Of a stretch of DNA of 64,000 bases, positions 7,524 to 53,663 are shown in pieces. A program made the position numbers and the translations under genes. The stretch comes from Haloarcula rubra (GTDB lineage: Archaea > Halobacteriota > Halobacteria > Halobacteriales > Haloarculaceae): contig NZ_RKLR01000001.1 in assembly GCF_019599465.1 (NCBI RefSeq), forward strand, positions 124,001 to 188,000, written 5' to 3'. The number at the start of each line of letters is the position of its first letter. The stretch's first letter is position 1. The notes beneath the pieces were generated by a model that searched no databases, was not told where the DNA came from, and saw nothing but the letters and a program-made list of their open reading frames with translations.

Positions 7524-8261
7524 ATGTCCGACGAACCTGACTCAGTCGTCGTGGTCGGCGGCGGCGTCGCCGGCCTCTCGGCGGCGATATACACGGCACG
7601 AGCCGGTATCTCGACGCGAATCGTCTCGACGGGCGAGTCCATCCTGAACCGGAACGCGCATCTGGAGAACTACCCCGGCTTCCCGGCGGGCGTCAACCCG
7701 CGGCTCCTGCTGGAACTCATCCGCGCACAGACGCGGCGAGCGGGGGCGTGGTTCGTGGACGGACGGGTCCAGCGCGTCACGGAGACAGACGACGGCTTCG
7801 AGACGACTGTCGAGAACGGGGAGACGTTCGAGTCCGACTACGTTATCGCGGCCTCGTGGGCCGACGCGACGTACCTCGACGGCCTCGACGTCGACGTCGT
7901 GGACCGCGGGACAAAAGAGTTCATCGGCGTCGACGACTGTGGCCGGACCGCCGTCGACGGCCTCTACGCGGCCGGCCGACTGGCCGAGCAACACCACCAG
8001 ACCATCGTCGCCGCCGGGCACGGCGCACAGGTGGGGCTGACGCTCGTCGAGGACAGCGACGTGGACTTCTACCACGACTGGACCGCGCCGGAAGGGTACT
8101 TCACCGACCGGGACCGCGAGGTGCCACCGGGCTGTGAGGAGATAGGCGAAGAAGAGCGAAAGCGCCGGGAACAGGAGTCACTGGAGATGATGCAGCGCTA
8201 CTTCGAGGAACCGATGCCGGGCGAACCCACGATGCACCCCAGCGTCGCGGACGAGGAGTGA
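7524..8261 (+). CDS. Short thioredoxin-reductase-like FAD-binding protein
   Basis: A 245-aa flavoprotein of the TrxR/pyridine nucleotide-disulfide oxidoreductase superfamily. The dinucleotide-binding motif 'VVVVGGGVAGLSAAIYTARAG' lies at residues about 9-29, 'LENYPGFP' is the TrxR-like FAD loop, and 'GLYAAGRLAE..HQTIVAAGHGAQVG' is the second FAD motif. Relative to thioredoxin reductase (about 310-340 aa) it lacks the central NADPH-binding domain and the redox CxxC. The tail is Glu/Arg-rich with a predicted helix. The start fits the divergent promoter region with pan. Reductase activity on thioredoxin is unlikely; the electron donor and partner are unknown. Confidence 0.85.
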   Translation: MSDEPDSVVVVGGGVAGLSAAIYTARAGISTRIVSTGESILNRNAHLENYPGFPAGVNPRLLLELIRAQTRRAGAWFVDGRVQRVTETDDGFETTVENGETFESDYVIAASWADATYLDGLDVDVVDRGTKEFIGVDDCGRTAVDGLYAAGRLAEQHHQTIVAAGHGAQVGLTLVEDSDVDFYHDWTAPEGYFTDRDREVPPGCEEIGEEERKRREQESLEMMQRYFEEPMPGEPTMHPSVADEE

Positions 8262-8262
8262 G

Positions 8263-9303
8263 TCAGCGGTCGCCGAGGAGGTCACCCAGCCGTTCGATTC
8301 GCTCGGCGGTCGGTGGGTGCGAGCGCGTCTCGAGGTGGAACTCGTCGCCACCGGACTCGTCGAATCCGTAGGGGAGGAAACAGAGCCCGCTGACCCCGTC
8401 GTAGGCGCGCCGCTTGTCCGTCGCCGGGGTCGGCGCCGCGTCGGCGTCGAGTGTCTGGAGTGCGCCGACCAGTGCCGACGGCTTCCCGGTGAGTTTCGCG
8501 GCGCTCCGGTCGGCGGTGTACTCCCGCGCACGCGAGAGCGACCGCGCGAGCACGACGACGGGTGCCGTGAACACGCCGAGCAGGATACCCCCGACGACGA
8601 CGGTCAGGCCGAACACGACCAGAAACCCGGCCGTGAAGGCGACGGACCCGAAGGGGGCGGAGAGGAAGCGTGCGCTGAGGACGTAGGCGACGCCGACCCC
8701 GACCACACCGGCGAGGAGTCGGCTCCCGCGTGCGCCCGGGAGCGAGTCGTCGAGCGGGCCGTACTCGCCGTTGGTGAGCGCCGGCAGGAAGTTCGCCAGC
8801 GTCATCACCGTCGCGTCGCGGTTCGAGACGTGCATCAGCTCGTGGGCGAGGACGGCGTCGAGTTCGTCGCCGTCGAGGGTCGCGAGTAGCCCCTCGCTGA
8901 CGACGACGGTCGCACTCCCGAACGTCCCGACGGCGAAACTGTTCGGGACCGGACTGTCGGCCACCGCGAGCGTCGGCATCGCCACGTCCGCCTGCTGGCT
9001 GAGTCGCTGGACTCGGTCGTAGAGGTCGGGGAACTCGTCGCGTGTGACCTCGCGTGCGTCGGCGTCCGAGAGGGTCTGTGCGCGGGTGTAGCGCAACTGC
9101 GCCCAGACGAACGCGACGAGGGCGGGCACGACGACGGCGACCCACCACGCGACGCCGGCGCCGACCGGGAGTGCCGCCGCGACGGCGTCACGGGCCGGCG
9201 AGAGCCACGGGGTCAGGAGGTACGCGGCCGTCGCGACGACGGCGACGTCGACGGCGAGTAACAGGGAGAGGGTCAGGAGGATACGGCGGGTGAGTCTCCG
9301 CAT
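8263..9303 (-). CDS. htpX: M48 family zinc metalloprotease (HtpX-like)
   Basis: A 346-aa integral membrane protease for quality control of damaged membrane proteins. Two N-terminal hydrophobic segments (about 8-30 and 40-65) precede the catalytic domain with the zinc motif HELMH ('VLAHELMHVSNRD'), then two further membrane segments (about 180-230), and the third ligand region 'SRAREYTADRSAAKLTG', where the second Glu of REYTAD is the expected zinc ligand. A 'PPTAERIERL' tail is typical of HtpX. The stop lies one base past the convergent flavoprotein gene, so both transcripts end in the same place. Confidence 0.93.
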   Translation of the reverse strand: MRRLTRRILLTLSLLLAVDVAVVATAAYLLTPWLSPARDAVAAALPVGAGVAWWVAVVVPALVAFVWAQLRYTRAQTLSDADAREVTRDEFPDLYDRVQRLSQQADVAMPTLAVADSPVPNSFAVGTFGSATVVVSEGLLATLDGDELDAVLAHELMHVSNRDATVMTLANFLPALTNGEYGPLDDSLPGARGSRLLAGVVGVGVAYVLSARFLSAPFGSVAFTAGFLVVFGLTVVVGGILLGVFTAPVVVLARSLSRAREYTADRSAAKLTGKPSALVGALQTLDADAAPTPATDKRRAYDGVSGLCFLPYGFDESGGDEFHLETRSHPPTAERIERLGDLLGDR

Positions 9304-9378
9304 AGGGCGTATCTGAACTTACTGTCAACACGCCAAAATCCTTCTGGTGGCTCAAGAATGCGTCTGACCAAGGACAAT

Positions 9379-9410: not shown

Positions 9411-10412
9411 GTGCCTTCCAGCCCCATCCGCGCCGCTCTGGCCCTCCTCTGTGCAGGTGCCGTCATCTACGCGACGGCGCTGTTCCCCGCTGCGCTGGAC
9501 GTAGAACTCCGGCAACAGGCACCCGTCGAGGGGACGGCACCGACGCCGACCCCGACGCCCGACACGCCGACCCCGACACCAACGTCCTCGCCCACGCCCA
9601 CGGCGACACCGACCGCGGCACCGCCACCCGAGGCGGACGGTGGCGGCGGCCTGCCGGACCTCTCCTTCCTCCCGACGTTGCTCGCGTTGCTCGGCCTGAC
9701 AGCCGTGGGCTACGTCGGCGTGGTGCTGGTCCGGTCCAGCGACGGCTACGGAGAGGCAGACATCAGGCTCCCTTGGGTGGGACGTATCCCACTCCCGTTC
9801 GCTGGCGTCGTCCAGCGGATTCCGCAGGTCACGGCCACCGTCCTGCTCGCCGGTGGGGGCGGCCTCGCCCGAGTCGCGGCGGGCGTCGGCACGGTGGTCC
9901 GGGGCGTCGGGCACGGCGTCGCGGCCGGTCTGGGCCCCGTCGGCAGGATACTCGGACGGTCGGTCACCGCCCTCCCGGGTGCGCTCGCCATCCTCGCGAC
10001 GGCACCGGTGCGGTCGCTGGCCGGGCTGGCCGGTGGTGGCCTGTTCGCGTCGCTCCGCGACGGCTTCGAGCGCCCCGGCTTCGTGGAACCGGACGACCCG
10101 ACGACAGAGGACGCTCGGACCGCCGCGTCGGTCCCGGTAGGTAGCGACGCCGGCGAAGACTCGAGTCCGCTTACGATACGCGAGGCTTGGGAGCGATTGA
10201 CCGACGCCGTCCCGGTCGACAATCCGACCGCCACGACGCCCGGCGAGTACGCACGCGAGGCGATAGCCGCCGGCCTCCCCGCGGGACCGGTCTGGCGACT
10301 GACCGAGGTGTTCCGGGCCGTCACCTACGGCGGCGAGTCGCCGTCGACCGGTCGGGCGGAGGCCGCCCGTGACGCACTCCGCGACGTCTTCGGCGGAGGT
10401 GACGAGTCGTGA
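9411..10412 (+). CDS. DUF4129 domain-containing membrane protein
   Basis: A 333-aa protein with an N-terminal signal-anchor ('IRAALALLCAGAVIYATAL'), a Pro/Thr repeat linker (TPTPTPDTPTPTPT, about residues 45-75), a second membrane helix (about 85-110), a glycine-rich middle, and a C-terminal DUF4129 domain ('IREAWERLTDAVPVDN..ATTPGEYAREAI..GLP', about 245-325). DUF4129 is often found beside transglutaminase-like, DUF58 and MoxR genes. First gene of a four-gene operon with four-base overlaps. A role in assembling or remodelling the cell envelope is an inference from that association only. Confidence 0.85.
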   Translation: MPSSPIRAALALLCAGAVIYATALFPAALDVELRQQAPVEGTAPTPTPTPDTPTPTPTSSPTPTATPTAAPPPEADGGGGLPDLSFLPTLLALLGLTAVGYVGVVLVRSSDGYGEADIRLPWVGRIPLPFAGVVQRIPQVTATVLLAGGGGLARVAAGVGTVVRGVGHGVAAGLGPVGRILGRSVTALPGALAILATAPVRSLAGLAGGGLFASLRDGFERPGFVEPDDPTTEDARTAASVPVGSDAGEDSSPLTIREAWERLTDAVPVDNPTATTPGEYAREAIAAGLPAGPVWRLTEVFRAVTYGGESPSTGRAEAARDALRDVFGGGDES

Positions 10413-11176
10413 GCGAGACGGTGACCACGGACGAGCGCACCACCGACGAGGTGACGGTCCCGACCCGGGACACCGCGACGGACCCGGACGAAACCGTCAC
10501 CGCGACGCGGTCGGCACGGGCGAGAGTCGACGGCACGGTCGACCGGGACGACACCGGCGGCTGGTGGCGGCTGTTCGCCGCCGTCGGACTCGTGTCGCTC
10601 CTCGCCGCCGTCGTCGTCGCGACGGTCCCCGGACTCGTCGGCTCGCTGGTCGGTGCCGGGACGACGGCGACGCTCCGTGCCGCCATCCCGGCGACGGCCG
10701 GCCTCGTCACACTGCTCGGCCTCTACGGCGTCGTCACACGGTCCCACGCCGCGGACAGCGACGACCCCGCCCCCGTGGAACTCCCGACGGCTACCCCCGA
10801 GTCGATGCAGGGGCCTACCCAGACCGTCGTGGGCGACGACGTCGACGACCTGCTCGACCGCATCGACGGTCGCGTCGACCCCTACGACGGACTCGAAGCG
10901 AGTTACGCGGCCGACGTGCGCCGGCGACTCCGCGAGACGGTCGAACGGACGCTCGTCCGCCGTACGGGACTAGACGCCGAGGAGGCCCAGGACGCGGTCG
11001 AGGCGGGGACGTGGACCGACGACCCTCGCGCCGCGTCGTTCCTCGGCGGCGACGGCGTCCCGGACCCGCCGCTCGGGCGACAGGTCCGCGACTGGGCCAG
11101 CGGCGAGGGGTTCGACCGCAAGGTCGACGCGACGCTGGCCGAGATTCGGCGCCTTCGGGGAGGTGACGGCGCGTGA
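10409..11176 (+). CDS. DUF7269-like membrane protein
   Basis: A 255-aa protein starting with GTG that overlaps the preceding stop (GTGA). The acidic N-terminal tail (about 1-45) is followed by two membrane helices (about 50-75 and 88-110, 'LFAAVGLVSLLAAVVVATV' and 'AAIPATAGLVTLLGLYGVV'), and then a soluble helical domain ('LLDRIDGRVDPY', 'RRRLRETVERTL', 'AEEAQDAVEAGTWTDDPRAASFLG'). That arrangement is found in the haloarchaeal DUF7269 family, which lies between DUF4129 and DUF58 genes. No biochemical function is known to me. The family number is from memory; the operon position is seen directly. Confidence 0.7.
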   Translation: MSETVTTDERTTDEVTVPTRDTATDPDETVTATRSARARVDGTVDRDDTGGWWRLFAAVGLVSLLAAVVVATVPGLVGSLVGAGTTATLRAAIPATAGLVTLLGLYGVVTRSHAADSDDPAPVELPTATPESMQGPTQTVVGDDVDDLLDRIDGRVDPYDGLEASYAADVRRRLRETVERTLVRRTGLDAEEAQDAVEAGTWTDDPRAASFLGGDGVPDPPLGRQVRDWASGEGFDRKVDATLAEIRRLRGGDGA

Positions 11177-12522
11177 GCGAGCGACGGCGGGGTCGCCGCG
11201 CCGTCGGTCTCTCGGTCGCACTCGTGACCGGCGCCGCCGGCCTCGCGACCGGGAACGCGGCCATCTTCGTCGCCTCGACGGTCGGCCTCGTGTACGCCGC
11301 CTACGAGAGCGCGACGCGACACCCCGAACCCGAACTGACCGTCGAGCGGACGCTCGAACCGGCCGCGCCGCTCCCGGGCGACGAGGTGTCGGTGACCGTG
11401 ACGGTCCGCAACGAGGGACGCAGGCACCTCCCGGACGTGCGCGTCGTCGACGGCGTCCCCGACCGCCTCCGTGTCGTCGACGGGTCGCCACGGTTCGGGA
11501 CGACGCTCGACGTCGACGACAGCGCCGCCTTCGGCTACAGCGTCAGGGCGCGACGCGGCGAACACCCGTTCGGCGAGACGACCGTCGTCTGCCGTGACCT
11601 CGCCGGGACCACGGAGTCCCGTGCGTCGGTGACCGTCGAGACGACCATCGACTGCGGCGCGGACGTGGAGTCGCTCCCGCTCTCGGCACGCGAACTCACC
11701 CAGACCGGACGCGTCCAGACGCAGGCGGGCGGCGACGGCGTCTCGTTCTACGGCATCCGCGAGTACCAGTCGACGGACCCGATGCGACGCATCGACTGGA
11801 ACCGCTTCGCCCGGACGAGCGAACTGTCGACCGTCGAGTACCGGGAGACGGCCGCGGCGAGCGTCGTCCTGTTGGTCGACACGCGGCACCCTGTCGCGGC
11901 GCGGCCACGCGACCCCGACGCGGTCCAGTTCTGTACGTACGCCGCCGAGCGACTGGCCGAGACGTTACTGGCCGAGAACGACCGGGTCGGTGCCGCCACC
12001 TTCGACGACTGTGCGTACCTCCGCCCCGCGGCCGACAGGAACCAGTACCGCCGCCTGCGGGCGTTCCTCGCCGCCGTGACGGGCGGCGACGGCGTGACAG
12101 CCGACGGACAGCGGGACGACGGCGAGGTCGGCCGCCTGTTCCCGCCCGGCGCCGAACTGCGAGCGAACCGCCCCTCCCCGACGGGGTCGGCACCGGACCG
12201 CCACGGACCGGTCGCGGACGGCGGCGACGCCGTCGAGACGCTCGACCGTCGCCTCCCCGACGAGGCACAGGTCGTGTTCTGTAGCCCGCTACTGGACGAC
12301 CGGGCGGCCGACGCGGCCAGACGTCTCGCCGCGTACGGCCAGGCGGTGACCGTCGTCAGCCCGGACGTGACGGCGTCGGAGACGGCCGGCGGCACCCTCG
12401 CGGGGTTCGACCGGGACGAACGCATCGACGGCCTCCGCGGGACGGTCCGCGTGGCCGACTGGACGCTGACGGACCCGCTCGCGAAGACGCTCGCGCGGGC
12501 CACGGAACGGTGGTCGGCGTGA
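11173..12522 (+). CDS. DUF58 domain-containing protein
   Basis: A 449-aa protein that begins at a GTG overlapping the previous stop. Two N-terminal hydrophobic segments (about 10-45) are followed by a beta-sandwich region resembling a repeat-of-CARDB/DUF11-like fold ('VSVTVTVRNEGRRHLPDV'), then the DUF58 core 'GVSFYGIREYQSTDPMRRIDWNRFARTSELSTVEY' region (about 192-225, described here by its key residues Y-G-IREY, D-MRRIDW and R), and a von Willebrand-like part ('VVLLVDTRH'). DUF58 proteins usually accompany MoxR-family AAA ATPases, thought to be chaperones for metal or complex insertion. No MoxR gene is in this window. Confidence 0.9.
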   Translation: MSERRRGRRAVGLSVALVTGAAGLATGNAAIFVASTVGLVYAAYESATRHPEPELTVERTLEPAAPLPGDEVSVTVTVRNEGRRHLPDVRVVDGVPDRLRVVDGSPRFGTTLDVDDSAAFGYSVRARRGEHPFGETTVVCRDLAGTTESRASVTVETTIDCGADVESLPLSARELTQTGRVQTQAGGDGVSFYGIREYQSTDPMRRIDWNRFARTSELSTVEYRETAAASVVLLVDTRHPVAARPRDPDAVQFCTYAAERLAETLLAENDRVGAATFDDCAYLRPAADRNQYRRLRAFLAAVTGGDGVTADGQRDDGEVGRLFPPGAELRANRPSPTGSAPDRHGPVADGGDAVETLDRRLPDEAQVVFCSPLLDDRAADAARRLAAYGQAVTVVSPDVTASETAGGTLAGFDRDERIDGLRGTVRVADWTLTDPLAKTLARATERWSA

Positions 12523-23350: not shown

Positions 23351-23445
23351 CACACGCACTGTCTCAATCAAGTAAGGACACTGCGAGACGGGCGGATACT
23401 CTCCGCTATCGGCTCGACTCGAAAGTGTCGGACACAAGACAAACC

Positions 23446-23925
23446 ATGGACATCAAACGATTCTTCGACGACGACGACGCCGTCTCTCCCGTTATCGGCG
23501 TCATCCTGATGGTCGCCATCACAGTTATCCTCGCAGCGGTCATCGCAACGTTCGTGCTCGGTCTGGGCGACCAGGTCAGCAACACCGCGCCGCAGGCGAG
23601 TTTCAGCTTCGACTACGATAGTGCAACTGGTGACGGTGAGTTAGATATCACTCACGATGGTGGCGACACTATAGAAGCTCAGAACCTGCAGATAACTTCT
23701 GATACCAGTTTTGACGGTACTGGCACTGTCTCTGGACAAACATCAGCTGCGTTCACCGAGTTCGCCGCGTACAGTGACGGAAGCGAGATTTCGGCAGGGA
23801 CTTCAGTTACCATTGAAGCAAGTTCCTCAGGAGACTTAGATGACGGTACCGTCCGCGTCACCTTCCAGTCTGACCAAGGCGACAACTCCGCAACGCTCGC
23901 CGAGTGGTCCGGTCCGGACGCCTAA
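23446..23925 (+). CDS. Type IV pilin (class III signal peptide), pilin 1
   Basis: A 159-aa pilin. The N-terminus '[27 protein letters not shown]' region has the acidic pre-sequence, the [15 protein letters not shown] block and the long hydrophobic assembly helix characteristic of haloarchaeal PilA-type pilins; cleavage by the prepilin peptidase PibD would occur just before or within 'AVSPVIG'. The ATG at 23446 gives the normal short leader peptide. The C-terminal beta-rich domain is Ser/Thr/Asp-rich, shares 'ITHDGGDTI' and '[12 protein letters not shown]' with pilin 2, and is visibly AT-richer than the N-terminal part. No pilus assembly ATPase is in the window. Confidence 0.93.
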
Positions 23926-23937
23926 ACACGTCGCTGC

Positions 23938-23945
23938 TTTTCTTT
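23938..23945 (+). terminator. T-rich stretch after pilin 1
   Basis: TTTTCTTT begins 13 bases past the pilin stop, in an otherwise GC-rich gap. It is a plausible U-tract terminator separating pilin 1 from the regulator gene. Confidence 0.4.
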
Positions 23946-24047
23946 CGACTCGGGCACCAGACGACTAGCGGACCGTACCGATTATTACCGTCGACTCGCA
24001 TGACTACGACACATGATTCGGGTCGGGCGAAGGGAAGTGACCGGTGC

Positions 24048-24617
24048 ATGAGTCAGCAGGCACAACCCCGCCCGTCGGAGGACTCCGCAGACTCGCTCTC
24101 GAAGGGCGAGATTTTCGACGTCCTCCAGAACGAACGCCGTCGCTACGTCCTGCAGTACCTCCGCGAGAACGGCGGCCCAGTAGAATTGGGTGCCCTCGCC
24201 TCACACGTCGCGTCACGGGAGTACGACTGCGACTCCGACGACGTCTCCAGCGCTCAGCGGAAGCGTGTCTACACGACGCTCCAGCAGACCCACCTGCCGC
24301 GGATGGACGAAGCCGGTATCGTCGAGTACGACGCCGACGACGGCGTCATCGCGACGACGCCGCAGACGAACGAACTGACGGTGTATCTCGAAATCGTCCC
24401 CGGGAGCGAGTTCCCGTGGCGCGAGTACTACCTCTCCTTCGGCGCCATCAGTCTCGCCGTCGTCGTCGTTCTTTGGGTCGGCGTCTACCCCTTCACCCTG
24501 CTCCCGCCGCTCGTGTGGGCGACGGTGATGGCCGTCGTCCTCACCGGGTCCGCGCTGTACCACACCGTGCTGGGCCGGGAGATGACGCTGACCGAGTTCA
24601 ACGACGACGACAAGTGA
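24048..24617 (+). CDS. DUF7344-type HTH regulator with membrane anchor, next to pilins
   Basis: A 189-aa protein. Residues about 20-110 form a winged-helix domain ('KGEIFDVLQNERRRYVLQYL', 'LGALASHVASRE', 'RKRVYTTLQQTHLPRMDEAGIVEYD'), and two hydrophobic helices follow (about 130-150 and 155-175). The ATG at 24048 is the first giving a sensible N-terminus. It lies between two pilin genes in the same orientation. Its closest relative in this window is the regulator at 47973-48566, which also flanks a surface-protein gene set. DNA-binding control of the pilins is likely by context; the membrane part suggests that it senses an envelope signal. Confidence 0.8.
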   Translation: MSQQAQPRPSEDSADSLSKGEIFDVLQNERRRYVLQYLRENGGPVELGALASHVASREYDCDSDDVSSAQRKRVYTTLQQTHLPRMDEAGIVEYDADDGVIATTPQTNELTVYLEIVPGSEFPWREYYLSFGAISLAVVVVLWVGVYPFTLLPPLVWATVMAVVLTGSALYHTVLGREMTLTEFNDDDK

Positions 24618-24662
24618 CGTCTCCAGTATTCACTGATGATAATCAGAGGGCGTTCGACCGCC

Positions 24663-24672
24663 TTTTTAAATA
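24663..24672 (+). promoter_or_regulatory. Distal TATA-like box upstream of pilin 2
   Basis: TTTTTAAATA lies about 215-224 bp before the pilin 2 ATG. If used, the transcript would carry a leader of about 190 nt containing several dyads. A second candidate box, TATAAG (24758-24763), lies within an inverted repeat (see 24721-24875). Confidence 0.4.
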
Positions 24673-24720
24673 TCGAGCCCTCGAACCAGTTTTTCGGTTT
24701 ACAGGTGGGTCTTGAGGGGT

Positions 24721-24875
24721 TTCAGGCCCGGCTTGAAGCGCTAAAACGTAGTGTGGGTATAAGTGTACCCACCTCATGTGAGGTGACACAGCACACCTTC
24801 GCGAGCGATAATCTGTGGTGTGGTGGGGTTAAGGACTGATTATCGCCCGGGAAACAACACACTGCGGTGTGCGTG
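24721..24875 (+). promoter_or_regulatory. Dyad-rich leader/operator region upstream of pilin 2
   Basis: Five dyads are packed before the pilin 2 start. Imperfect TTCAGGCCCGGCTTGAA is at 24721-24737. GTGGGTA/TACCCAC (24753-24759 and 24766-24772) brackets a TATAAG. CACCTCA/TGAGGTG (24770-24776 and 24779-24785) shares bases with the previous arm, so the two are mutually exclusive as hairpins. GCGATAATC/GATTATCGC (24805-24813 and 24838-24846) and CACAC/GTGTG (24858-24862 and 24867-24871) complete the set. These could be operators around a TATA box or a structured mRNA leader; nothing comparable is seen before most genes here. Confidence 0.55.
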
Positions 24876-24886
24876 GACACAAACAC

Positions 24887-25390
24887 ATGGACCTAAAAGA
24901 ACTGTTCAACGACGACGACGCTGTCTCGCCCGTTATCGGGGTCATCCTGATGGTAGCTATCACAGTCATCCTCGCGGCGGTCATCGCGTCGTTCGTCCTC
25001 GGACTCGGCGACCAGGCACAGCAGACGACTCCTCAGGCGAGCTTCGCATTCGACTACGACGCTAGTGCTGGTACTGCGTCTGACAGTGGTATTCTTACCA
25101 TCACTCACGATGGCGGCGATACCATCCAAGCAGGCAGTCTCTACCTTCGGGGTAGCAATATCATGACCTCCTCGGAAGCGAGTACAGACAGTATTTCGAA
25201 TGCTAACTACTTCGAAGGAGATGGTGCGTGGTCAGACTCATCAGCCTTTGGAGGAACTAGCAGTGAGGTCTCAGCAGGTTCCGGTATAGATGCTGCTGCG
25301 TTCAACGACTACGATGTTCGCGTCGTCTACGAACCACCGGAAGGCGACAACTCCGCCACGCTCGCTCAAGACTCCGGCCCCGAAGCGTAA
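24887..25390 (+). CDS. Type IV pilin (class III signal peptide), pilin 2
   Basis: A 167-aa paralogue of pilin 1. The leader and assembly helix are nearly identical ('[16 protein letters not shown]' and 'VLGLGDQ'). The globular part shares 'ITHDGGDTI' and 'GDNSATLA' but is otherwise different and contains an extra Ser/Gly-rich loop. The ATG at 24887 gives the same M-D-(I/L)-K start as pilin 1. The gene is preceded by an unusual dyad-rich region and followed by a T-run. The two pilins may be alternative or co-assembling subunits. Confidence 0.93.
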   Translation: MDLKELFNDDDAVSPVIGVILMVAITVILAAVIASFVLGLGDQAQQTTPQASFAFDYDASAGTASDSGILTITHDGGDTIQAGSLYLRGSNIMTSSEASTDSISNANYFEGDGAWSDSSAFGGTSSEVSAGSGIDAAAFNDYDVRVVYEPPEGDNSATLAQDSGPEA

Positions 25391-44895: not shown

Positions 44896-45750
44896 ATGGC
44901 AGTCGCCCGACACGAGTCCGGCCCCGTCGCGGCGGGCAGAGCCCTCGCCTCACAGGTACACCCCGTGTTCATGCTCCCACCGCTGGCGACGTCGCTGTTC
45001 GGCGCGTTGCTCGCGGGCGAAGTCACGGTCGCCGTCGCCGCGCTCCACGCCGCGGCGATGTTCTTCGCCGTCTACACCGCCCACGTCAAGGACGGCTACG
45101 TCGACTTCCACGTCCGCGGGGAGGACGACGACCACCCGCTGACGGTCGGCGGGTGTCGCGGCGCACTCGTCGGCGCCGGAGTCGGCTTTCTGACCTGCAC
45201 GGTCGGCCTCTGGCTGTTCGTCGGCCCGGGCGCCGCCCTCCTGACACTCCCGACGTGGGTCATCGGCTACACGCACGCGCCGCAACTCGACCTCAACCCA
45301 GTGGGGGCGACGATGGGCTATCCGACCGGCATCGCGCTGGCGTTACTGGGCGGGTACTACGCGCAGGCCTCGGCACTCAGCCCGCGAGTACTGGGGCTGG
45401 CCGCCGTCTTCCTCGCGTTGCTGACCGGCATCAAGATAATCGACGACGAGAAGGACTACGACTACGACCGCTCCATCGACAAACGGACCGTCGCGGTGGT
45501 GTTGGGGCCCCGACGAGCGCGGCAACTGGCCCGGTCGCTGCTCGTCGCGGCGATGGTCGGCGTCGTCGGCCTCGCGTTCACGCTGCCCGGGGTCCCCCCG
45601 ACGGCGGCGGGTGCGGCCGTCGTGTTCGGCGTAGTCGCCGCCGTCGCCCACCGCGCGGAGTCGGAGCTGGCGACGAAGTTGCTCATTCGCGGTTCGTACC
45701 TCTTTCTGGCGGTGCTCGTGGCCGCGGTGTGGTTCCGGCCGCTCGGGTGA
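44896..45750 (+). CDS. UbiA-family prenyltransferase
   Basis: A 284-aa intramembrane prenyltransferase with eight or nine helices. The second Asp-rich motif is clear: 'GIKIIDDEKDYDYDRSIDKRT' region (D-D-x-x-D-x-x-x-D). The first, normally N-D-x-x-D-x-x-x-D, is replaced by 'HVKDGYVDFHVRGEDDDHP', with acidic residues in a different spacing. UbiA enzymes transfer prenyl chains in quinone, haem or archaeal lipid synthesis; the acceptor here is unknown. A menaquinone or lipid role would be the default, but the unusual first motif sets it apart. Confidence 0.85.
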   Translation: MAVARHESGPVAAGRALASQVHPVFMLPPLATSLFGALLAGEVTVAVAALHAAAMFFAVYTAHVKDGYVDFHVRGEDDDHPLTVGGCRGALVGAGVGFLTCTVGLWLFVGPGAALLTLPTWVIGYTHAPQLDLNPVGATMGYPTGIALALLGGYYAQASALSPRVLGLAAVFLALLTGIKIIDDEKDYDYDRSIDKRTVAVVLGPRRARQLARSLLVAAMVGVVGLAFTLPGVPPTAAGAAVVFGVVAAVAHRAESELATKLLIRGSYLFLAVLVAAVWFRPLG

Positions 45751-45849
45751 GTCGAGCGCGGTCGTCGGTCGGTCCTCTGCCGCGACCGTCCCGTGATTCG
45801 CGCGTCTCTCACGGCCAGTGAACCGGCGCTCGCGTCGGTCGAAGTTCTA

Positions 45850-47976
45850 CTAATCGTCCGTCTCGCCCTCGTCTGCTGTTTCTGCCTCGGTCGGCGCCTC
45901 TGTCTCAGTCGGGGCCTCGGTTTCCGTCTCAGTCGGTGTCGGCGTTTCTGTCTCGGTTGGTGTCGATGTCTCGGTCGGCGTCTCGGTTTCAGTCTCAGTC
46001 GGTGTCGGTGTCTCCGTTTCCGTCTCTGTTGGTGTTTCCGTCTCTGTCTTGGTCGGTGACGCCGTTTCCGTCTCTGTCTCAGTGGGCGTCTCGGTTGGTG
46101 TCGGCGTGTCGTCCTCTGTCGGCGTCCCGGTTTCCGTCTCCTGTTCTATCTGAACCGCCGAATCAGTCTCTGTCTCTGCAGGTATCTCGGTCCCCGTCTC
46201 GGTTGGACTGGAAGTATCTGTCCCGGTGGCCGTCGGCGTTTCAGTCTCTGTCTCGGTTTCGGTGGGTGTCGACGTCGGTGCAGGGGACGGCGGAGGTGTA
46301 CTCGATTCCGTCGGCGTCGGCTCAGGTGTCGCCGTCGACGAGTCGGATGCTGACCCTCCCGCGTCCATGGTTGGCGTTTGGGTGAGTGTCGGCGTGTCAG
46401 TTCTGCTCGGCGTCTCCGACGCCGGTTCCGTCGCCGTCGTTGTCGGCGTCCGGGTCCCCGTCGACGACTCCGCAGGAGTGGCAGTCCGCGTCGTGGTCGG
46501 AACCGGCGTCGCAGTCGACGTCTCTGCCGGAGTCGCCGTCGGGGCCGATTCGGTGGCCTGAGATTCGGACCCCGAGTCGGCCGACGTCGGTGCCTCGGTC
46601 GCCGTGGATTCGGTCTGCGTCACGGACGCGTCTTCGTCCCGAATTTCGCTCTGTGACGTCTGCTGTTCGGTCGCCGTAGATTCGGCCGTCGTAGCGGTCG
46701 CCTCCGTGGTCGACGTGGCGGCCCCTCCCGCTGTCGACGTCCCGGTCGGAGTCTCGCTCTCGGTGGGTGACGCTGCCCCGGTCGTGGTCCGGGTCGGTGA
46801 CCCCGTCGGTGCTGACGTCGCCGTGGCACCAGCGTCGTCGACCGTCTGTGTAGGGCTCGAACCGTCAGTCCGCGTCTGTGACTCGGTCGCCGTCGTGTCG
46901 TCTGTCGGTGTTGCCGTCGCCGTCTCACTCGGCGTCGGAGCCGACACTTCTGGTGGTGGGTCCGAAGACGAGTCGGTCTCGTCCGTGGACTGTGTCTCCG
47001 ACGAGGTCGTCTCGGGGGACGACGTCGTGACTGGCGAGTCCTCCGACGGAGACTCCGTCGACGAGTCTGGCTGTCGGTCGGCGGACGCAGTGGCCGTATC
47101 GACGGGAGTCGCGGTCGGGGTCGTCGGCGCTTCGCTCTGAGTCGGAGAGTCGGTCTCGGTCCGTGCCGACGTCGGCGTGACGTCTCCCTCCGGCGTCGGC
47201 TCTCTGGACACCACGTCGAGGAGGCTCGCCGTCGACTCGGACTCGGGTGTGCGCGTCTCATCTAGCTGAGTCGTGTCGACGCTCTGGGACGCCACCTGTT
47301 CGGTGCTGCTGTCGGTGCGGGTGTCCGTCTGCTGCTCGGTAGTCCCTCCCGAGTCCTGTGTGTCGGCGTCGCTGTCGCCGCCATCCGACGACGAGTCGGC
47401 GTCACTAGTCTGGGTCGCCGTCGTGGTCGTCTCGGACTGGTTCGTGCCGCCGAAACTGTCGCCGATGTCCTGCACTCGCTCGATGGATCCCTGGATGGTC
47501 TCGGCGAGGGTGTCCTGGAGGCTGCCGCCGCTGCATTCGACGTTGACGGTTCTGTCCAGCGACACCTCGACGCCGCTGCCCGTCGCGCGTATCTCGACCG
47601 TGACCGTCTCCGTGGCACCGCTCTCGCTACAACTGACGTCGGCGACGAGAGCACCGGTCTCGCCGCTGTCGAGCGAGCCCGGTTTCTCGAAGTTCGTCAG
47701 TCGGACGCCGCCGTCGGTTTCGTTCGTGACGGTCAGGTCGAGTTCGAGGGCCCTCCCGAACCGGTTGGTGAACGACGCGAGCGTCACGTCGGAACTGCCG
47801 TTCCCGTCGACGGTGACCCGGTCGTGTGCGATGCCCAGATACGCGTTCTCGTCCTCGACGACGGCCGCGGTCAGCCCCCGCCCGGCGGTCACGCTGCTGA
47901 ACGCGCCGCTCTGTGCCAGCAGCGACGCGAACACCACCAGCGCGCCGACGGCGAGGACGAGTCGGCGTCGCCTCAT
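45850..47976 (-). CDS. Large Thr/Glu-repeat exported protein with TasA-like N-terminus
   Basis: A 708-aa surface protein. A basic n-region and hydrophobic helix (1-26, 'MRRRRLVLAVGALVVFASLL') precede 'GAFSSVTAGRGL' and 'DENAYLGI', the same pattern as the small SipW-type protein at 48893 ('GAFESANATRGV', 'DANAYLKL'). A beta-rich domain (about 30-150) containing 'RTVNVECSGG' follows. From about residue 175 onward the chain is almost only T, S, E, P and A, ending in dense E-T-E-T-P-T repeats. No cell-wall or PGF-type sorting tail is seen. Likely heavily O-glycosylated stalk or matrix protein. The start overlaps the stop of the regulator gene by four bases. Confidence 0.85.
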   Translation of the reverse strand: MRRRRLVLAVGALVVFASLLAQSGAFSSVTAGRGLTAAVVEDENAYLGIAHDRVTVDGNGSSDVTLASFTNRFGRALELDLTVTNETDGGVRLTNFEKPGSLDSGETGALVADVSCSESGATETVTVEIRATGSGVEVSLDRTVNVECSGGSLQDTLAETIQGSIERVQDIGDSFGGTNQSETTTTATQTSDADSSSDGGDSDADTQDSGGTTEQQTDTRTDSSTEQVASQSVDTTQLDETRTPESESTASLLDVVSREPTPEGDVTPTSARTETDSPTQSEAPTTPTATPVDTATASADRQPDSSTESPSEDSPVTTSSPETTSSETQSTDETDSSSDPPPEVSAPTPSETATATPTDDTTATESQTRTDGSSPTQTVDDAGATATSAPTGSPTRTTTGAASPTESETPTGTSTAGGAATSTTEATATTAESTATEQQTSQSEIRDEDASVTQTESTATEAPTSADSGSESQATESAPTATPAETSTATPVPTTTRTATPAESSTGTRTPTTTATEPASETPSRTDTPTLTQTPTMDAGGSASDSSTATPEPTPTESSTPPPSPAPTSTPTETETETETPTATGTDTSSPTETGTEIPAETETDSAVQIEQETETGTPTEDDTPTPTETPTETETETASPTKTETETPTETETETPTPTETETETPTETSTPTETETPTPTETETEAPTETEAPTEAETADEGETDD
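45870..46275 (-). repeat. Low-complexity Thr-Glu-Thr-Pro codon repeats
   Basis: In-frame short tandem repeats encode E-T-E-T-P-T units of variable length at the 3' end of the 708-aa gene. On the plus strand they read as repeated 'gtctcggtc' and 'ggtgtc' words. Unit lengths are irregular, consistent with slippage or recombination, and different from CRISPR repeat-spacer structure. Confidence 0.85.
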
Positions 47977-48566
47977 CGCTCGCGCACCTCTGGTGGCTCG
48001 GCCGTACTCCCGAGGCGTAGCTGCGAGTGATTGAGGTAGGTGTGTACGACCGCGGAGACGAAGACGGCGACGACGAGGAACAGCGCACAGGAGAGGTCAG
48101 GTACCCGACCGAGCGGACCGAGGTCGGCCCACGCGGCCGTGACGACGACCAGCCCGAGCGTGGAGAGCGCGAGGTAGTATCGGCTCCACGGCACGTCCAC
48201 GCCGGGGACGACGTCGAGATACACCTCCAGGTCGGCGACGGCGTCGGCGAGTTCGACGGTCTCCCGGCGGTTGTCGTACTGTACGAACCCGCTGGCGTCC
48301 ATCTTCGGCAGGTGATGCTGGTGGAGCGCAGTCTTGACGCGCTTCGTCTCGGCCGAGGTCAGTTCCCCGACGGCCTTCTCGTTCTCCCACGCCGCGACGT
48401 GTTCCGCGAGTTCGCGGAGGTACACGCGCCGTGCCTGTTGCTTGAGATAGTGGAAGACGAACCGCCTGCGTTCGTTGCTCAGTATCTCGAAGACGGTGTT
48501 TTCGGAGGGTGGCTGATCCGCGCTGCCCTGCTGTGGTCTGGATGGTTCGACGTCGACTTCGCTCAT
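47973..48566 (-). CDS. DUF7344-type HTH regulator with membrane anchor, surface-module copy
   Basis: A 197-aa protein. Winged-helix region (about 20-110): 'ENTVFEILSNERRRFVFHYLKQ', 'LRELAEHVAAWEN', 'AETKRVKTALHQHHLPKMDASGFVQYD' in pieces; then two hydrophobic helices (about 130-150 and 155-180). It is a paralogue of 24048-24617, with the same 'NERRR' and 'HLPKMD/HLPRMD' motifs. ATG 48566 gives the shortest credible N-terminus. It overlaps the Thr-rich protein gene and is divergent from the SipW-type gene, so it may control both through the intervening dyad. Confidence 0.85.
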   Translation of the reverse strand: MSEVDVEPSRPQQGSADQPPSENTVFEILSNERRRFVFHYLKQQARRVYLRELAEHVAAWENEKAVGELTSAETKRVKTALHQHHLPKMDASGFVQYDNRRETVELADAVADLEVYLDVVPGVDVPWSRYYLALSTLGLVVVTAAWADLGPLGRVPDLSCALFLVVAVFVSAVVHTYLNHSQLRLGSTAEPPEVRER

Positions 48567-48892
48567 GATTGGGTCCGTTGACCCCGCGTCAACGCTGCCG
48601 AATCTCACCACAGGGAGGGGACTTAGTTAGATAGATGACATATAGGAATATCCCGAGGTTGTCTCGTTTTAATAGTCGGTAAACTATTACCGGCCGAACA
48701 TACGGTCGGGTTACCGATTCGAAAAGACGGATTGCAGGCCTCAGTACCCTATTTCACCGCTGCAACCGGCGTCTGCATGCTGCGGCCCGCATATACCAAA
48801 GGTGTGATACGATGATGGTGGAAGTGAGCACACTGGAAGCGAATGTTGGTGACGTGATTGGTCGTACGGGTGTGCACAAGGAGCACAAGACA
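48567..48892. promoter_or_regulatory. Divergent intergenic region with nested dyads and two TATA-like boxes
   Basis: A 326-base gap without a gene. For the minus-strand regulator, a TATA-like CCTATATG lies near 48638-48646. For the plus strand, GCATATACC lies at 48789-48797, giving a leader of about 70 nt before ATG 48893. Between them are TAATAG/CTATTA (48670-48675 and 48684-48689) and, nested within, GGTAA/TTACC (48678-48682 and 48687-48691), a plausible operator. An in-frame ATG at 48812 upstream of the SipW-type gene is not favoured. Confidence 0.55.
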
Positions 48893-49378
48893 ATGCAACG
48901 ACGCAAATTCCTCATCGGAATGGGATCGCTCGCCGCTGGTTCAGCGGCTGCAATAGGTACTGGTGCGTTTGAGAGTGCCAACGCAACACGTGGTGTGAGT
49001 GTAAGTCTGGCTGCAGACGCCAATGCTTATCTTAAACTCACTGCCGACGACGAATACGTCACAAACGATAGTGGGACTGGAACCCTGACAGTTGATTTAG
49101 GTGGGCCGACGACCGATGAAGGAGGTCAAGGATTCAACGACAACGCCGTGACGGTAGTGAATACTATCAACATCCAAAACCAGGGCGGGAATCAAAAAAC
49201 AGTTAATATTGATCTCGTTGACAACACTGGTTCAGGTATCCAAGCGGCGCTCAACGGTGATCCCACCTTAGGCCCTGGTGGCTCAGTAAGTGATGCGGTA
49301 CAATTCACGGTCGATACAAAGAACGCAAACCCTGAGAACTCCGGTGGTAACATAGTCATCAAAGCGCAAGAAGTATAA
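48893..49378 (+). CDS. SipW-type exported protein (DUF1102/TasA-camelysin-like)
   Basis: A 161-aa protein. The N-terminus 'MQRRKFLIGMGSLAAGSAAA' and 'GTGAFESANATRGV' is the form found in haloarchaeal DUF1102 and SipW-dependent proteins; cleavage is expected near 'ESANA'. A beta-sandwich domain follows ('DANAYLKLTADD', 'VTVVNTINIQNQGGNQKTVNIDL' in pieces), ending 'GNIVIKAQEV'. TasA/camelysin relatives form extracellular fibres, including bundling pili in Pyrobaculum (from memory). The gene is conspicuously AT-richer than its neighbours, with many A/T third positions. The signal peptidase follows at 49513. Confidence 0.85.
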   Translation: MQRRKFLIGMGSLAAGSAAAIGTGAFESANATRGVSVSLAADANAYLKLTADDEYVTNDSGTGTLTVDLGGPTTDEGGQGFNDNAVTVVNTINIQNQGGNQKTVNIDLVDNTGSGIQAALNGDPTLGPGGSVSDAVQFTVDTKNANPENSGGNIVIKAQEV

Positions 49379-49483
49379 CATTATCCAGATTACTATAATC
49401 ATCCCAATAGGTATTTAATTCATAAATTTTTGAACTATATACTTCACTTATATACTATCCAAATCTACGTACGGCCGTTCGGA

Positions 49484-49490
49484 ACTTAAA
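49484..49490 (+). promoter_or_regulatory. TATA-like box of the signal peptidase gene
   Basis: ACTTAAA is centred 26 bp before ATG 49513, implying a leaderless transcript separate from the SipW-type gene. The surrounding 49379-49512 stretch is strongly AT-rich and holds no ORF. Confidence 0.5.
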
Positions 49491-49512
49491 CATCTATCTA
49501 AGTCATTAGGCC

Positions 49513-50670
49513 ATGGGTGAAATATCAGTTCACCGTCTCGTTACGGGTAGCGTGTTATTGTTTGTCGTTGCTCTGTTGATCGGAGCGATGTTGGGGCAAC
49601 CAATTCTGCTCGGGTTTGTAGAGACAGGTAGTATGGAACCAACCCTGCAAACCGGCGACGGCTTTGTCGCCATCCCTGCGGTCGTCGCGGGACCAGTAGA
49701 AGAAGGGGATGTCGTTGTCTTCCGCGCCGAAGAGATACAAGGCGGTGGCCTGACAACCCACCGCATTGTTGAATCAACCGATAGTGGATACGTCACGAGA
49801 GGTGACGCCAACCCGTTTACCGATCAGGATGGTGAAGAACCACCTGTCAGGAATGATCAGATCGTCGCAGTAGTCTGGCAACCAGGCGGCGAGGTACTGG
49901 CGATTCCCGGTGTCGGTGCGGTTGTTACCGGAACGCAAGATGTGCTCCAACTAGTTCAACGAAAACTCGCCGCCGCGTTGGGTACCCGCTCGCTGTTGGG
50001 CGTACAGGGACTGGCATACCTGTTCTTCGGTTTCACGGTACTCGTCTATCTTGTCGATACCTGGCGTTCTGATAATCGAAAGCGTGATTCGCGAACTCAC
50101 TCCCGCGACTCGGGCACGAGTACACGACTCCTTGTCGGTATCTTCGCTGCCGCTATCGTTCTCTCAGCCACAGCAGTGATGATCGGACCAGCAGGACCGC
50201 AAGAATTCGGCGTCGTCAGCGCGGAAACCGACTCGCCAGGGACCCGCGTCATCGAACAGGGAACGACCGAGTCAACGACGTACCCAGTCGGCAACGGGGG
50301 AGTGGTTCCGGTAGTCACCTATCTCGAACCGGGGAGCGACGCCATAGACGTCGAACCGCGTGAACTCGCGGTTCCCCGGCGGTCGGTCGCCAACGCCACA
50401 GTCACGTTGCACGCACCACCAGAGACAGGGTACTACCGTTATTTCGTCATTGAACACCGCTACCTCGCCTTACTCCCACAGTCGCACATCCGCACACTCT
50501 ACGAGATTCACCCCTGGGCACCCATCGTCGTCATCGACACGGTACTCGGCGTCCCGTTCTACCTCGTCGGTGTCAGACTGGTCGGCACCGGACGGATACG
50601 GAACCGCTCGCGGGACGTGGAACGGCCGGTCAGTGCTCGTCTGCACCGATGGGTCAGGCGTCTGTACTGA
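49513..50670 (+). CDS. Signal peptidase I, S26B/SipW type, with extended C-terminus
   Basis: A 385-aa membrane peptidase. TM1 at about 8-30, then the catalytic Ser in 'ETGSMEPTLQTGDG' and the His in 'TTHRIVESTD' (Ser-His/Asp arrangement of ER-type peptidases, instead of the bacterial Lys), then 'TRGDANPFTDQD'. Three more helices (about 165-185, 208-228 and 338-358) and an extracytoplasmic beta domain between the last two make it longer than the usual 200-250 aa. Likely a dedicated processing enzyme for the SipW-type protein and perhaps the Thr-rich protein. The first half of the gene is AT-rich, the second half GC-rich. Confidence 0.9.
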   Translation: MGEISVHRLVTGSVLLFVVALLIGAMLGQPILLGFVETGSMEPTLQTGDGFVAIPAVVAGPVEEGDVVVFRAEEIQGGGLTTHRIVESTDSGYVTRGDANPFTDQDGEEPPVRNDQIVAVVWQPGGEVLAIPGVGAVVTGTQDVLQLVQRKLAAALGTRSLLGVQGLAYLFFGFTVLVYLVDTWRSDNRKRDSRTHSRDSGTSTRLLVGIFAAAIVLSATAVMIGPAGPQEFGVVSAETDSPGTRVIEQGTTESTTYPVGNGGVVPVVTYLEPGSDAIDVEPRELAVPRRSVANATVTLHAPPETGYYRYFVIEHRYLALLPQSHIRTLYEIHPWAPIVVIDTVLGVPFYLVGVRLVGTGRIRNRSRDVERPVSARLHRWVRRLY

Positions 50671-50782
50671 GTACCGACGCCGAGAACCCTGCCGAAAGGC
50701 CACCTTGCGGAGCGCGAGCGAGACAGCAGCCACGGTATCCTGACTATAGCAATCACCGTGGCTGTGCAGTCCCCGACGTAGC

Positions 50783-51100
50783 ATGACCACCGTCACCAAC
50801 CTCCCTCGACGCCCGCTGGCACCACCGGACGTCGCCGAACTCAACGGCGACGACCGTATCGACGTCGCACCGTACGGCGGGGTGCGGGACGACGGCGTCC
50901 GTATCTACGCGGTCAAGTTGGCCGTCGACGACACCGCGTACGCCCTCGGGTTCGACGACGCGACCGAGCAGTGGGAGCACCTCCTGACGGTGGACGCGGC
51001 GGACCTGTCGGCTGCGGACGACCAGCTCGATACGGTGCTCGACGAGTGGGCCGTCGAGACCTACGGCGGAAGCTTCGACGTGGTGAAGCCTATCGGTTAG
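50783..51100 (+). CDS. Small haloarchaeal hypothetical protein
   Basis: A 105-aa acidic soluble protein: 'MTTVTNLPRRPLAPPDVAEL', then 'VRIYAVKLAVDDTAYALGFDDATEQWEHL', read in pieces, and 'AVETYGGSFDVVKPI'. An alpha/beta fold is likely. No recognisable domain and no signal peptide. It lies inside the surface module between the peptidase and the DUF5305 gene, but nothing in its sequence connects it to export. Confidence 0.7.
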   Translation: MTTVTNLPRRPLAPPDVAELNGDDRIDVAPYGGVRDDGVRIYAVKLAVDDTAYALGFDDATEQWEHLLTVDAADLSAADDQLDTVLDEWAVETYGGSFDVVKPIG

Positions 51101-51296
51101 ACGGCCGAGGGACAGCGAGACAGTAGGCCGAGAGAGAGGTACTGTCGGCAGTCCAGCGACTCGAGTCGATAGCGGTCTTCGCGTCCGTTTCCCCCCGCCT
51201 CTGGCAACGAAAGCAGTTCGTACTCGCCGACCGAAAGTTCGCCTGAACGAGGATATCAGTGGCATAACAAACAGGTGCGGTGAACCGTGAGGACTT

Positions 51297-52469
51297 ATGA
51301 ATAGACGTTGGTTGCGCGTGCGGGCGCTGCTGGAGTCGCAGTTCGAACTGCTCGTCGTGGTCCTCCTCGCCCTCGCACTCGCCGGCGGGTGGGTGACCTA
51401 CGGCGCGTACGTCGACCCCGGAACCACGACGGAGGAACGGGTCGTCTCGTCGTGGGGGACGACCGGCGACTACGACCACGCCGCGACGGTCGTCGAACCG
51501 AACCCCATCTACGACGTCGGCACGACGCTGGAGAACCAGTCGCTCTACGTGGCCGCCGTCGCGCCCGAACTCGACGGGACCTTCAGGTTCGGCTACAACG
51601 CGACCGACGGCGGTAACCTCGACGTAACCGTCGCGGAGCATCTCGTCGTCCACTCCGTGGCCGAAGAGGACGACGCGACCGTCGAGGTCTGGCGGCAGGT
51701 CCGCTCGCTCGACGAGCAGTCGGTCGACTCGGTGCGACCGAACAGGACTGTTCGCGTGCCCTTCACCGTCGACGTCAACCGGACGATGAACCGCACGGAG
51801 CGAATCGAGGAACGACTCGGCGACCCGCCCGGGACTCCGCAGATGGCGGTCGTCGCGACCGTCCGGCTGAACGGGACCGTCAACGGGGGCGAGGTCAACC
51901 GCACGATGGAGTACGTCCTCCCGGTCGCCTTCGACCGGGGCGCGTATCGGGTGAACGCGACGGCGGCGACGCAGCGGTTCGAGACGACCGAGACGGTCGT
52001 GGTGCCGCGGGAACCCGGCCAAGCCGAGACCCTCGGCGGGCCGGCAGCGCTCGCGCTGGGACTGCTCGGCCTCGTCGCACTCGGGGCCGCCCGCTGGCGG
52101 AACGACCTCGCACTCACCGACGCCGAACGCGAACGCCTCGCGTTCGAGGACGACCGCGAGGAGTTCGACGAGTGGATCAACGCCATCGAACTCCCGTCCG
52201 ACGCCGAGTCGCTGCCCCGCGCGGAGGCGTCGTCGCTCGGTGACCTCGTCGACTTCGCCATCGACACGGACAACAGCGTCGTCGAGCGACCCGACGACGG
52301 CGCGTACTACGTGATTCACGACGGCTACGCCTACAGCTACGCCCCGCCGGAGATAGACGGAGCGTCACCGGACGACCGCCCGACGACGCCGACGGACGGG
52401 TCCACGATGGAGGCGAGCGGAGCCGAGGCGTCGAGCACCGAGACGGACGGGACCGACGGCGAGAGGTGA
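51297..52469 (+). CDS. DUF5305 family membrane protein
   Basis: A 390-aa protein with an N-terminal helix (about 16-37, 'FELLVVVLLALALAGGWVTYG'), an extracytoplasmic beta-rich domain (about 40-240: 'FRFGYNATDGGNLDVTV', 'TVRLNGTVNGGEVNRTMEYVLPVAF' in pieces), a second helix (about 245-265) and a cytoplasmic acidic tail. DUF5305 genes commonly stand beside SipW-type signal peptidases in haloarchaea (from memory), so a role in processing or assembly of the exported fibres is likely. The start is supported by its position and by a weak upstream box. Confidence 0.85.
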   Translation: MNRRWLRVRALLESQFELLVVVLLALALAGGWVTYGAYVDPGTTTEERVVSSWGTTGDYDHAATVVEPNPIYDVGTTLENQSLYVAAVAPELDGTFRFGYNATDGGNLDVTVAEHLVVHSVAEEDDATVEVWRQVRSLDEQSVDSVRPNRTVRVPFTVDVNRTMNRTERIEERLGDPPGTPQMAVVATVRLNGTVNGGEVNRTMEYVLPVAFDRGAYRVNATAATQRFETTETVVVPREPGQAETLGGPAALALGLLGLVALGAARWRNDLALTDAERERLAFEDDREEFDEWINAIELPSDAESLPRAEASSLGDLVDFAIDTDNSVVERPDDGAYYVIHDGYAYSYAPPEIDGASPDDRPTTPTDGSTMEASGAEASSTETDGTDGER

Positions 52470-52484
52470 AGGCACCCCCGTCGC

Positions 52485-53663
52485 TCAGTTCTCGCTGATT
52501 ATCTTGACGACCGCGCCCTCCTCCAGTTCCGTCTCGTCGCTGATGCGGCGGTTCTCACGGGCGTCGACGGCGTGGGTGTAGCCGTCGCCGATGTCCGAGT
52601 GGACGGCGTAGGCGAGGTCCTTCGGCGTCGACCCGCGGGGCAGGAGGTGCGCGTCGGGTAGGACGTTGCCCTGTCCGTCGGTCCACTTCGTGTCGTTCTG
52701 GACGGGATAGGCCGTGACGTGGTCGAGCAGGTCGTAGACGGCGGCGTCCATCGCCTGCTGGACCCCGGTGCCACCGTACTCGGCCATCACGTCGCGGATG
52801 CGGTCTAAGCCCTGTCGCTGTTGGTCGCTCACGTCGGCGACGATGTCGAAGTCCGGGTCGCCGGGGTCGTAGTCGACGGCCCCCGCCTCCGCGGCCTTCC
52901 GCAGGGCCAGTTCGCCGTCGGCCGTCGCCGGGACGACCAACTCGGCGGCCTCCCGCAGGCGCTCGACGTTGTCTTCGGGCGCGACGTCGGCCTTGTTGGC
53001 GACGACCACGATGGGTTTCGTCCGCTGGCGTATCTGCCTGGCCAGCGCCTCACGATGGTCGTCGGTCCACGCGATTGGGTCCTCGGGGTAGTCGAGTTCA
53101 CGCAGCGTTCGAGCCACGTCCAGTTCGCTCGCGCCGACGCCGGCGAGCAAGTCGAGCAGTGCCTCGTCTAAGTCGAAGTCCGGCGAGCGCGACTGGCGTT
53201 CGACGGACTCCCAGTTGCGGTCGACGATGCTGGCGAGCCAGAGGTCCATCTCCGTCTCGACGAAGTCGACGTCTTCGACCGGGTCGTGTTCACCCACTTC
53301 GACCGGTTCGCCCTCCTCGTTCGTGCCGCCGGAGGCGTCGACGACGTTGAGGATGACGTCGGCGTTCGTGAGTTCGTCGAGGAACTGGTTGCCCAGTCCG
53401 CGCCCCTCGTGGGCGCCGGGGACGAGGCCGGCAACGTCGATGAGTTCGACGGGGACGTAGCGCTTGCCGTCCCGGCAGTCGTCGTCGCCACAGCGCTCCT
53501 CGCGGTCGAGACAGGGACACTCGGTGCGGACGTGGCTCACGCCGCGGTTGGCGTCGATGGTCGTGAACGGGTAGTTCCCCACGTCCACGTCGGCCATCGT
53601 CGCCGCCTTGTAGAAGGTAGACTTCCCGGCGTTGGGTTTGCCAGCGAGTGCGATAGAGAGCAT
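52485..53663 (-). CDS. ychF: Redox-regulated ATPase / translation-associated GTPase YchF (Obg family)
   Basis: A 392-aa P-loop protein. G1 '[16 protein letters not shown]', G2/G3 '[26 protein letters not shown]' in pieces, NKAD-like '[18 protein letters not shown]' and a C-terminal TGS domain ('[23 protein letters not shown]' in pieces) define the archaeal YchF/Obg branch. An insertion after G2 contains a cysteine cluster ('[19 protein letters not shown]'), typical of the archaeal version. It likely monitors ribosomes. Convergent with the DUF5305 gene. Confidence 0.95.

Follow-up and report, generated by a model that had tools for sequence, protein, structure and literature searches.

What do six adjoining genes in the genome of Haloarcula rubra make, and how do they come to occupy their place in the chromosome? 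The genes lie at 45850–52469 of a 64,000-nucleotide stretch (contig NZ_RKLR01000001.1, positions 124,001 to 188,000; hereafter the window), and an earlier note on this DNA had read them as a set that makes and assembles an extracellular fibre or matrix of the SipW/TasA kind. Our analysis supports the fibre part of that reading, through homology to Tafi and through gene linkage, but the closest relative proves to be tafi and not the TasA operon of Bacillus. Taf stands for the Tat (twin-arginine translocation)-fimbriae, or tafi, described in haloarchaea (Galeva et al., iScience 2025, 28:111793, as cited in PMC12687288), and we think it very likely that the six genes are a tafi-type cluster of compact, divergent form whose product is a thin fibre on the cell surface. 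Its features, in positions of the window and with proteins measured in amino acids (aa), are as follows.

45850–47976, minus strand: TafC-type exported protein, 708 aa (NCBIfam TafE, E 3e-5; profile-profile match; tail composition; tail-less orthologues)
47973–48566 (alternative start 48611), minus strand: DUF7344 winged-helix regulator with a C-terminal membrane hairpin (Pfam PF24035, E 1.2e-29; translation)
48567–48892, no strand: divergent control region between the regulator and fibre-subunit genes (alignment of five orthologous regions)
48893–49378, plus strand: Taf-type fibre subunit, 161 aa, with a twin-arginine signal (TafE, E 1.7e-10; TafA, E 2.4e-6; PDB 9p0a)
49513–50670, plus strand: SipW-like archaeal signal peptidase with an outer PapD/MSP-like domain (TIGR02228; invariant residues; model and fold matches)
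50783–51100, plus strand: 105-aa protein, cytosolic-looking (homologues adjoining Taf genes in other genomes)
51297–52469, plus strand: DUF5305 membrane protein (Pfam PF17231, E 3e-54; linkage to SipW genes)
45751–52484, no strand: the whole insertion, 6734 bp (gap between the UbiA prenyltransferase gene, 44896–45750, and the YchF-type GTPase gene, 52485–53663)

All six open reading frames are intact, and their positions bear out the gene order, the four-base overlap of the regulator and 708-aa genes (47973–47976) and the divergent promoter described earlier.

The probable fibre subunit and the TafC-type protein

Evidence for a tafi-type cluster comes from the 161-aa protein, which, in addition to its NCBIfam matches to TafE (40.9 bits) and TafA (27.7 bits), is similar to PDB entry 9p0a, entitled 'Structure of Natrinema sp. 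J7-2 Tafi pilus', with an E value of 1.1e-7 from the single sequence and of 5e-33 when a profile of 22 relatives is used. A check of the fold family of 48893–49378, which the earlier note had proposed, is thus answered at the level of sequence and profile by homology to a solved haloarchaeal fibre subunit. The label DUF1102 that this protein had been given is not borne out by the Pfam scan, in which it has no DUF1102 match at E<=1, but paralogues in the same genome do match (E 9e-8 and 0.0015).

The start at 48893 is backed by the sequence MQRRKF, which is kept in relatives; the signal begins MQRRKFLIGMG, its two arginines are invariant in 22 sequences, and this motif points to Tat as the route by which the main subunit is exported. 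Cleavage is predicted at TGA/F (residues 25/26), so that Phe26 would be the first mature residue. For the 9p0a chain, the sequence counts 215 residues and the structure-library entry 188, a difference consistent with a mature protein that begins at the Phe of TGA/F, provided that the C-terminus of the chain was modelled completely.

The 708-aa gene holds the TafC position, downstream of the regulator gene and overlapping it. In a canonical cluster (locus L078 of genome G007), in which TafA, TafC, TafE and TafF each score above their NCBIfam cut-offs, the TafC gene (10007–11170) and the regulator gene (11167–11727) likewise overlap by four bases. The earlier description of a Thr-rich exported protein stands, and can be refined to a TafC-type subunit with a fused stalk: a signal peptide with a GAF motif is followed by a Taf/TasA-like domain of ~130 residues and a 553-residue tail (30% Thr, 13% Glu, 13% Ser, 11% Pro) partly made of imperfect repeats, and no C-terminal anchor was seen. 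The TafE match covers the first 146 residues (23.8 bits, below the cut-off), no TafC match is listed for the protein in the NCBIfam scan, and a profile-profile comparison of the N-terminal domain with Taf subunits, made on sequences lacking most of the signal peptide, gave 97.8% probability and an E value of 1.1e-12. The versions in the relatives examined have ~150–390 residues, all without the Thr-rich tail, while TafC of L078 (569 bits, above the cut-off) has a LamG lectin domain at its C-terminus (E 2.8e-22). These sequences suggest that TafC-type proteins combine a shared adaptor domain with a passenger that varies, being a lectin in one lineage and a mucin-like stalk here.

As the long stalk is unique to the window copy and makes the 708-aa protein its largest product, one could suppose that this protein is the functional product, and that SipW-like processing frees single-domain Taf-like proteins that coat the surface and do not polymerise. 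We consider such a coat improbable: 9p0a shows the homologous subunit in polymeric form, and the clusters of relatives encode one to several subunits.

The signal peptidase and its partners

An endoplasmic-reticulum-type signal peptidase with an extra external domain had been reported at 49513–50670, and both parts are confirmed. The protein scores 59.9 bits against TIGR02228 (archaeal signal peptidase I; cut-off 51.85), and S40, H83, D98 and D104 are invariant in 17 sequences, with Ser40 and His83 as the active-site pair. It also matches NF046067, the Bacillus-type SipW family, at E 1.2e-9. Together with a TasA-like signal and a Phe beside the predicted cut, this match would be expected of a true Bacillus-type TasA/SipW matrix operon. 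However, the score of 38.0 bits falls far below the NF046067 cut-off of 190, the signal is of the Tat type and not a plain Sec signal, and the tafi match is far stronger; we regard a Bacillus-type operon as scarcely plausible.

The outer domain (residues 226–318) lies between transmembrane helices and is modelled well, with blocks mostly at 70–93 in the predicted local distance difference test (pLDDT), whereas the catalytic part of the same model is poor. By fold, the domain comes closest to MSP domains (VIA, Z up to 8.2), followed by the PapD-type pilus chaperones CupB2, Caf1M and YadV (Z 6.4–6.5), although this is a common fold and only one immunoglobulin-like (Ig-like) domain is present. 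A chaperone role for the domain is a hypothesis suggested by the model. Two other ideas were discarded: profile comparison gave no similarity between this domain and the fibre domain (probability 1%), of which it might have been a copy, and a viral origin was rejected, as no relative of the peptidase was found in viral contigs and there were no PHROG matches. Relatives of the peptidase do occur on haloarchaeal plasmids, at 38–45% identity.

The claim that the genes form a coherent set was examined in 146 genomes of the family, of which 106 have the peptidase, 110 Taf-type subunits and 114 DUF5305. Co-occurrence was computed from the listed places of full-length-type matches (131 peptidase and 144 DUF5305 genes). 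A DUF5305 gene lies within 12 kb of 118 of the 131 peptidase genes; both occur in 103 genomes, DUF5305 alone in seven, the peptidase alone in none, and neither in 36 (Fisher p 1.6e-27, uncorrected for kinship). The regulator, TafC-type gene, subunits, peptidase and DUF5305 recur as a group in many loci, so that the proposed linkage of the genes is indeed kept in many haloarchaeal genomes. The DUF5305 membrane protein, correctly named before, is on this sequence evidence probably a partner of the peptidase.

Homologues of the 105-aa protein, 56–58% identical, lie beside Taf genes at locus L094 (genome G123), together with all five other genes, and at locus L096 (G076), with a subunit, a regulator and a TafC-type gene; a damaged copy is present at 9745–9861 of L095 (G017). 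As the gene adjoins Taf-type genes in three further genomes, it is probably part of the system, and its product probably acts in the cytosol.

The remaining gene had been described as a membrane-anchored helix-turn-helix regulator, which agrees with the DUF7344 winged helix and C-terminal hairpin found. Judged by the starts of relatives, translation more likely begins at the ATG at 48566 than at the GTG at 48611. An alignment of the orthologous control regions of five genomes revealed conserved blocks in 48567–48892, but a search of this region for an operator yielded no convincing repeat. Elsewhere in the window (23425–25390), another DUF7344 regulator (E 3e-31) has an archaeal type IV pilin gene on either side (Pilin_N, E 6e-28 and 3e-27), so that regulators of this family adjoin two different filament types within the window. 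That region is also a second dip in guanine-plus-cytosine (GC) content. At the Taf-type genes, GC drops from ~0.68 in the surroundings to 0.505 within the subunit gene and 0.584 within the peptidase gene, and the 134 bp that separate the two have 0.313; since a subunit gene of Haloarcula salina and of G011 has the same dip, it goes with the subunits.

Homology, gene linkage, the insertion described below and the conserved active site were computed; polymerisation, the donor strand, the roles of the subunits and the regulation, and with them the making of a fibre, we infer. In a tafi-type cluster, the 161-aa subunit would be exported by Tat and cut after TGA/F by its dedicated SipW-like peptidase, upon which the cut subunits would polymerise by donor-strand exchange via the freed N-terminal strand. 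The TafC-type protein, with its long and probably glycosylated stalk, would be a minor subunit at the tip or surface; DUF5305 and the outer domain of the peptidase would act at the membrane in assembly or anchoring; and the DUF7344 membrane regulator would control both arms from the divergent promoter, the set sitting as one unit at a variable chromosomal site.

The insertion site, the other clusters and the signal-peptide DNA

The six genes fill exactly the 6734 bp between the UbiA and YchF genes, an interval that is empty in six genomes of the same genus. The UbiA and YchF stop codons overlap by four bases in G022, the closest relative, whose flanking proteins are 94 and 97% identical, and in G019; in G008, G016, G021 and G012 the two genes are 1–80 bp apart. 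A related cluster of 4.3–6.7 kb occupies the same site in G011, G024, Haloarcula salina and G017, a four-gene version is found there in G076, which belongs to another genus, and G028 carries apparent polysaccharide genes at the site (glycosyltransferase, epimerase and deacetylase, as read from sequence). The UbiA–YchF interval is an insertion hot spot, although the difference between the window and G022 may reflect either a loss in G022 or a gain in the window. That the cluster behaves as a site-specific insertion, absent from the closest relative, is new here.

A second cluster with the same divergent layout is present in the H. rubra genome (locus L016, contig C11:839.7–847.0 kb). Its peptidase is 67%, its regulator 46% and its DUF5305 protein 42% identical to those of the window. 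The peptidases of the insertion site form one clade (support 100/99), apart from that of the second cluster, which falls in a separate, well-supported clade. As the tree groups the copies at the insertion site, we rejected the idea that the window cluster is a recent duplicate of the second one.

Beside the peptidase gene of the second cluster, at 10784–12568 of L016, lie genes for a TafF-like and a rhomboid/rhombosortase-like protein (E 3e-4), an arrangement that recurs in many relatives; an extra processing step is possible. A third Taf-like group in the same genome (locus L064, G000:C22:680000-693632, at 6247–9310) consists of DUF5305, a peptidase and one twin-arginine subunit.

Several observations weigh against our interpretation of the window genes as a tafi-type cluster. 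None of the Taf proteins of the window reaches its NCBIfam equivalog cut-off (TafA 190, TafC 410 and TafE 155 bits) in the scan, and neither the open reading frame list nor NCBIfam revealed a second subunit gene, or TafF, between 48611 and 52469. AlphaFold predicts the subunit with no more than moderate confidence (pLDDT 65); the model matches 9p0a with Z 6.5 over 113 residues at 14% identity and the Pyrobaculum bundling pilus 7ueg with Z 6.4 over 105 residues, but values near 6.5 are common to many unrelated beta-sandwiches, with which both matches are tied, so that it is the sequence evidence that carries weight. TasA and camelysin were not among the fold-search matches listed for the subunit, which we count neither way. 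Furthermore, the copy of G017 at the same site has no peptidase gene and, with its damaged 105-aa gene, looks as if it were decaying. The unmet cut-offs and the missing TafF and second subunit indicate a sister variant and not a canonical tafi cluster; lacking these two, the copy may rely on the second cluster, or may be decaying.

Dependence on the second cluster would mean that the window holds a reduced, helper-dependent copy, whose 161-aa and stalked 708-aa proteins join the fibres of the second cluster and form none of their own. The second cluster encodes two TafA/TafE-like subunits as well as the TafF-like and rhomboid-like proteins missing from the window, its first subunit has a 96% identical signal peptide, and G017, where the homologous site carries no gene for the peptidase, has a complete cluster elsewhere in the genome. 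However, the window retains an intact peptidase, DUF5305 and regulator, and G011, G024 and Haloarcula salina, which carry the cluster at the same site, yielded only one peptidase gene each in our search, indicating that the site can serve alone. We view helper dependence as possible, if on balance unlikely, and prefer a tafi-type cluster that makes its own fibre.

The DNA encoding the signal peptides (window 48893–48970 and its counterpart in 22 relatives) provides a lead of a different kind. Among 16 subunits, the signal peptides are 90% identical on average and the mature parts 35%. Synonymous sites of the signal are unusually conserved: where the amino acid is shared, the third base of the codon agrees in 74% of cases in the signal and 41% in the mature part (133/136 pairs; 32% expected from codon usage). 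Two paralogues in G012 are identical in the first 78 bases, their signal DNA, while their mature third positions agree at 27%. RNAalifold gives a closed structure exactly over the signal-coding stretch, with an inner hairpin in which compensatory synonymous changes occur at codons 14/18 and 15/17. Pairs at codons 14/18 are CG (12), GC (7), GU, UA and UG (1 each), with one break, and these codons pair in 33 of 46 sequences against 18.2±3.0 in shuffles, although some signals align poorly there. None of 500 shuffles reached the observed covariation score. Counts such as these are inflated by related sequences. The folding energy of the signal RNA is not lower than that of synonymous-codon shuffles (mean z 0.2), so that only covariation supports the hairpin. 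A known RNA element was rejected, there being no Rfam match in the region. One might propose that the signal-peptide DNA is an RNA element, or an anchor for the exchange of subunit bodies between clusters, and that the PapD-like outer domain caps each subunit as soon as it is cleaved, so that a single protein would act as both signal peptidase and assembly chaperone; we rate this combined proposal as unlikely.

Comparison with known systems

With Taf-type subunits in three-quarters of the genomes surveyed, the results extend a recently recognised class of archaeal surface fibres far past its canonical members. With its few genes, the set also lends itself to studying how subunits exported by Tat are cleaved and polymerise in the absence of a pilus motor, and the outer Ig-like domain of the peptidase allows a direct link between processing and assembly to be put to the test.

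Among known filaments, the bundling pilus of Pyrobaculum calidifontis resembles the subunit model in fold only to the extent given above; it comes from a different phylum and had no sequence match in the PDB sequence search. The TasA/SipW system of Bacillus subtilis shares with the window a dedicated SipW-like peptidase, an exported subunit and a Phe beside the cleavage site (PMC10269814), and TasA fibres are described as assembling by donor-strand exchange (PMC9674648). The window differs in its Tat-type signal in place of a Sec signal, in the archaeal family of its signal peptidase, in the PapD-like outer domain of that peptidase, and in its DUF5305 and DUF7344 partners.

Compared with canonical tafi, the window set stays below every equivalog cut-off, lacks TafF and has one subunit gene; its TafC-type protein bears a Thr-rich stalk where the canonical one bears a LamG lectin domain; and it has the extra 105-aa gene, another gene order and its location at an insertion site. 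Shared with tafi are a homologous twin-arginine subunit, a TafC-type gene that overlaps a DUF7344 gene, the same outer domain of the peptidase and DUF5305 nearby, and the regulator, TafC-type, signal peptidase and DUF5305 genes, all four of which are present in the window, are the same neighbours in L078.

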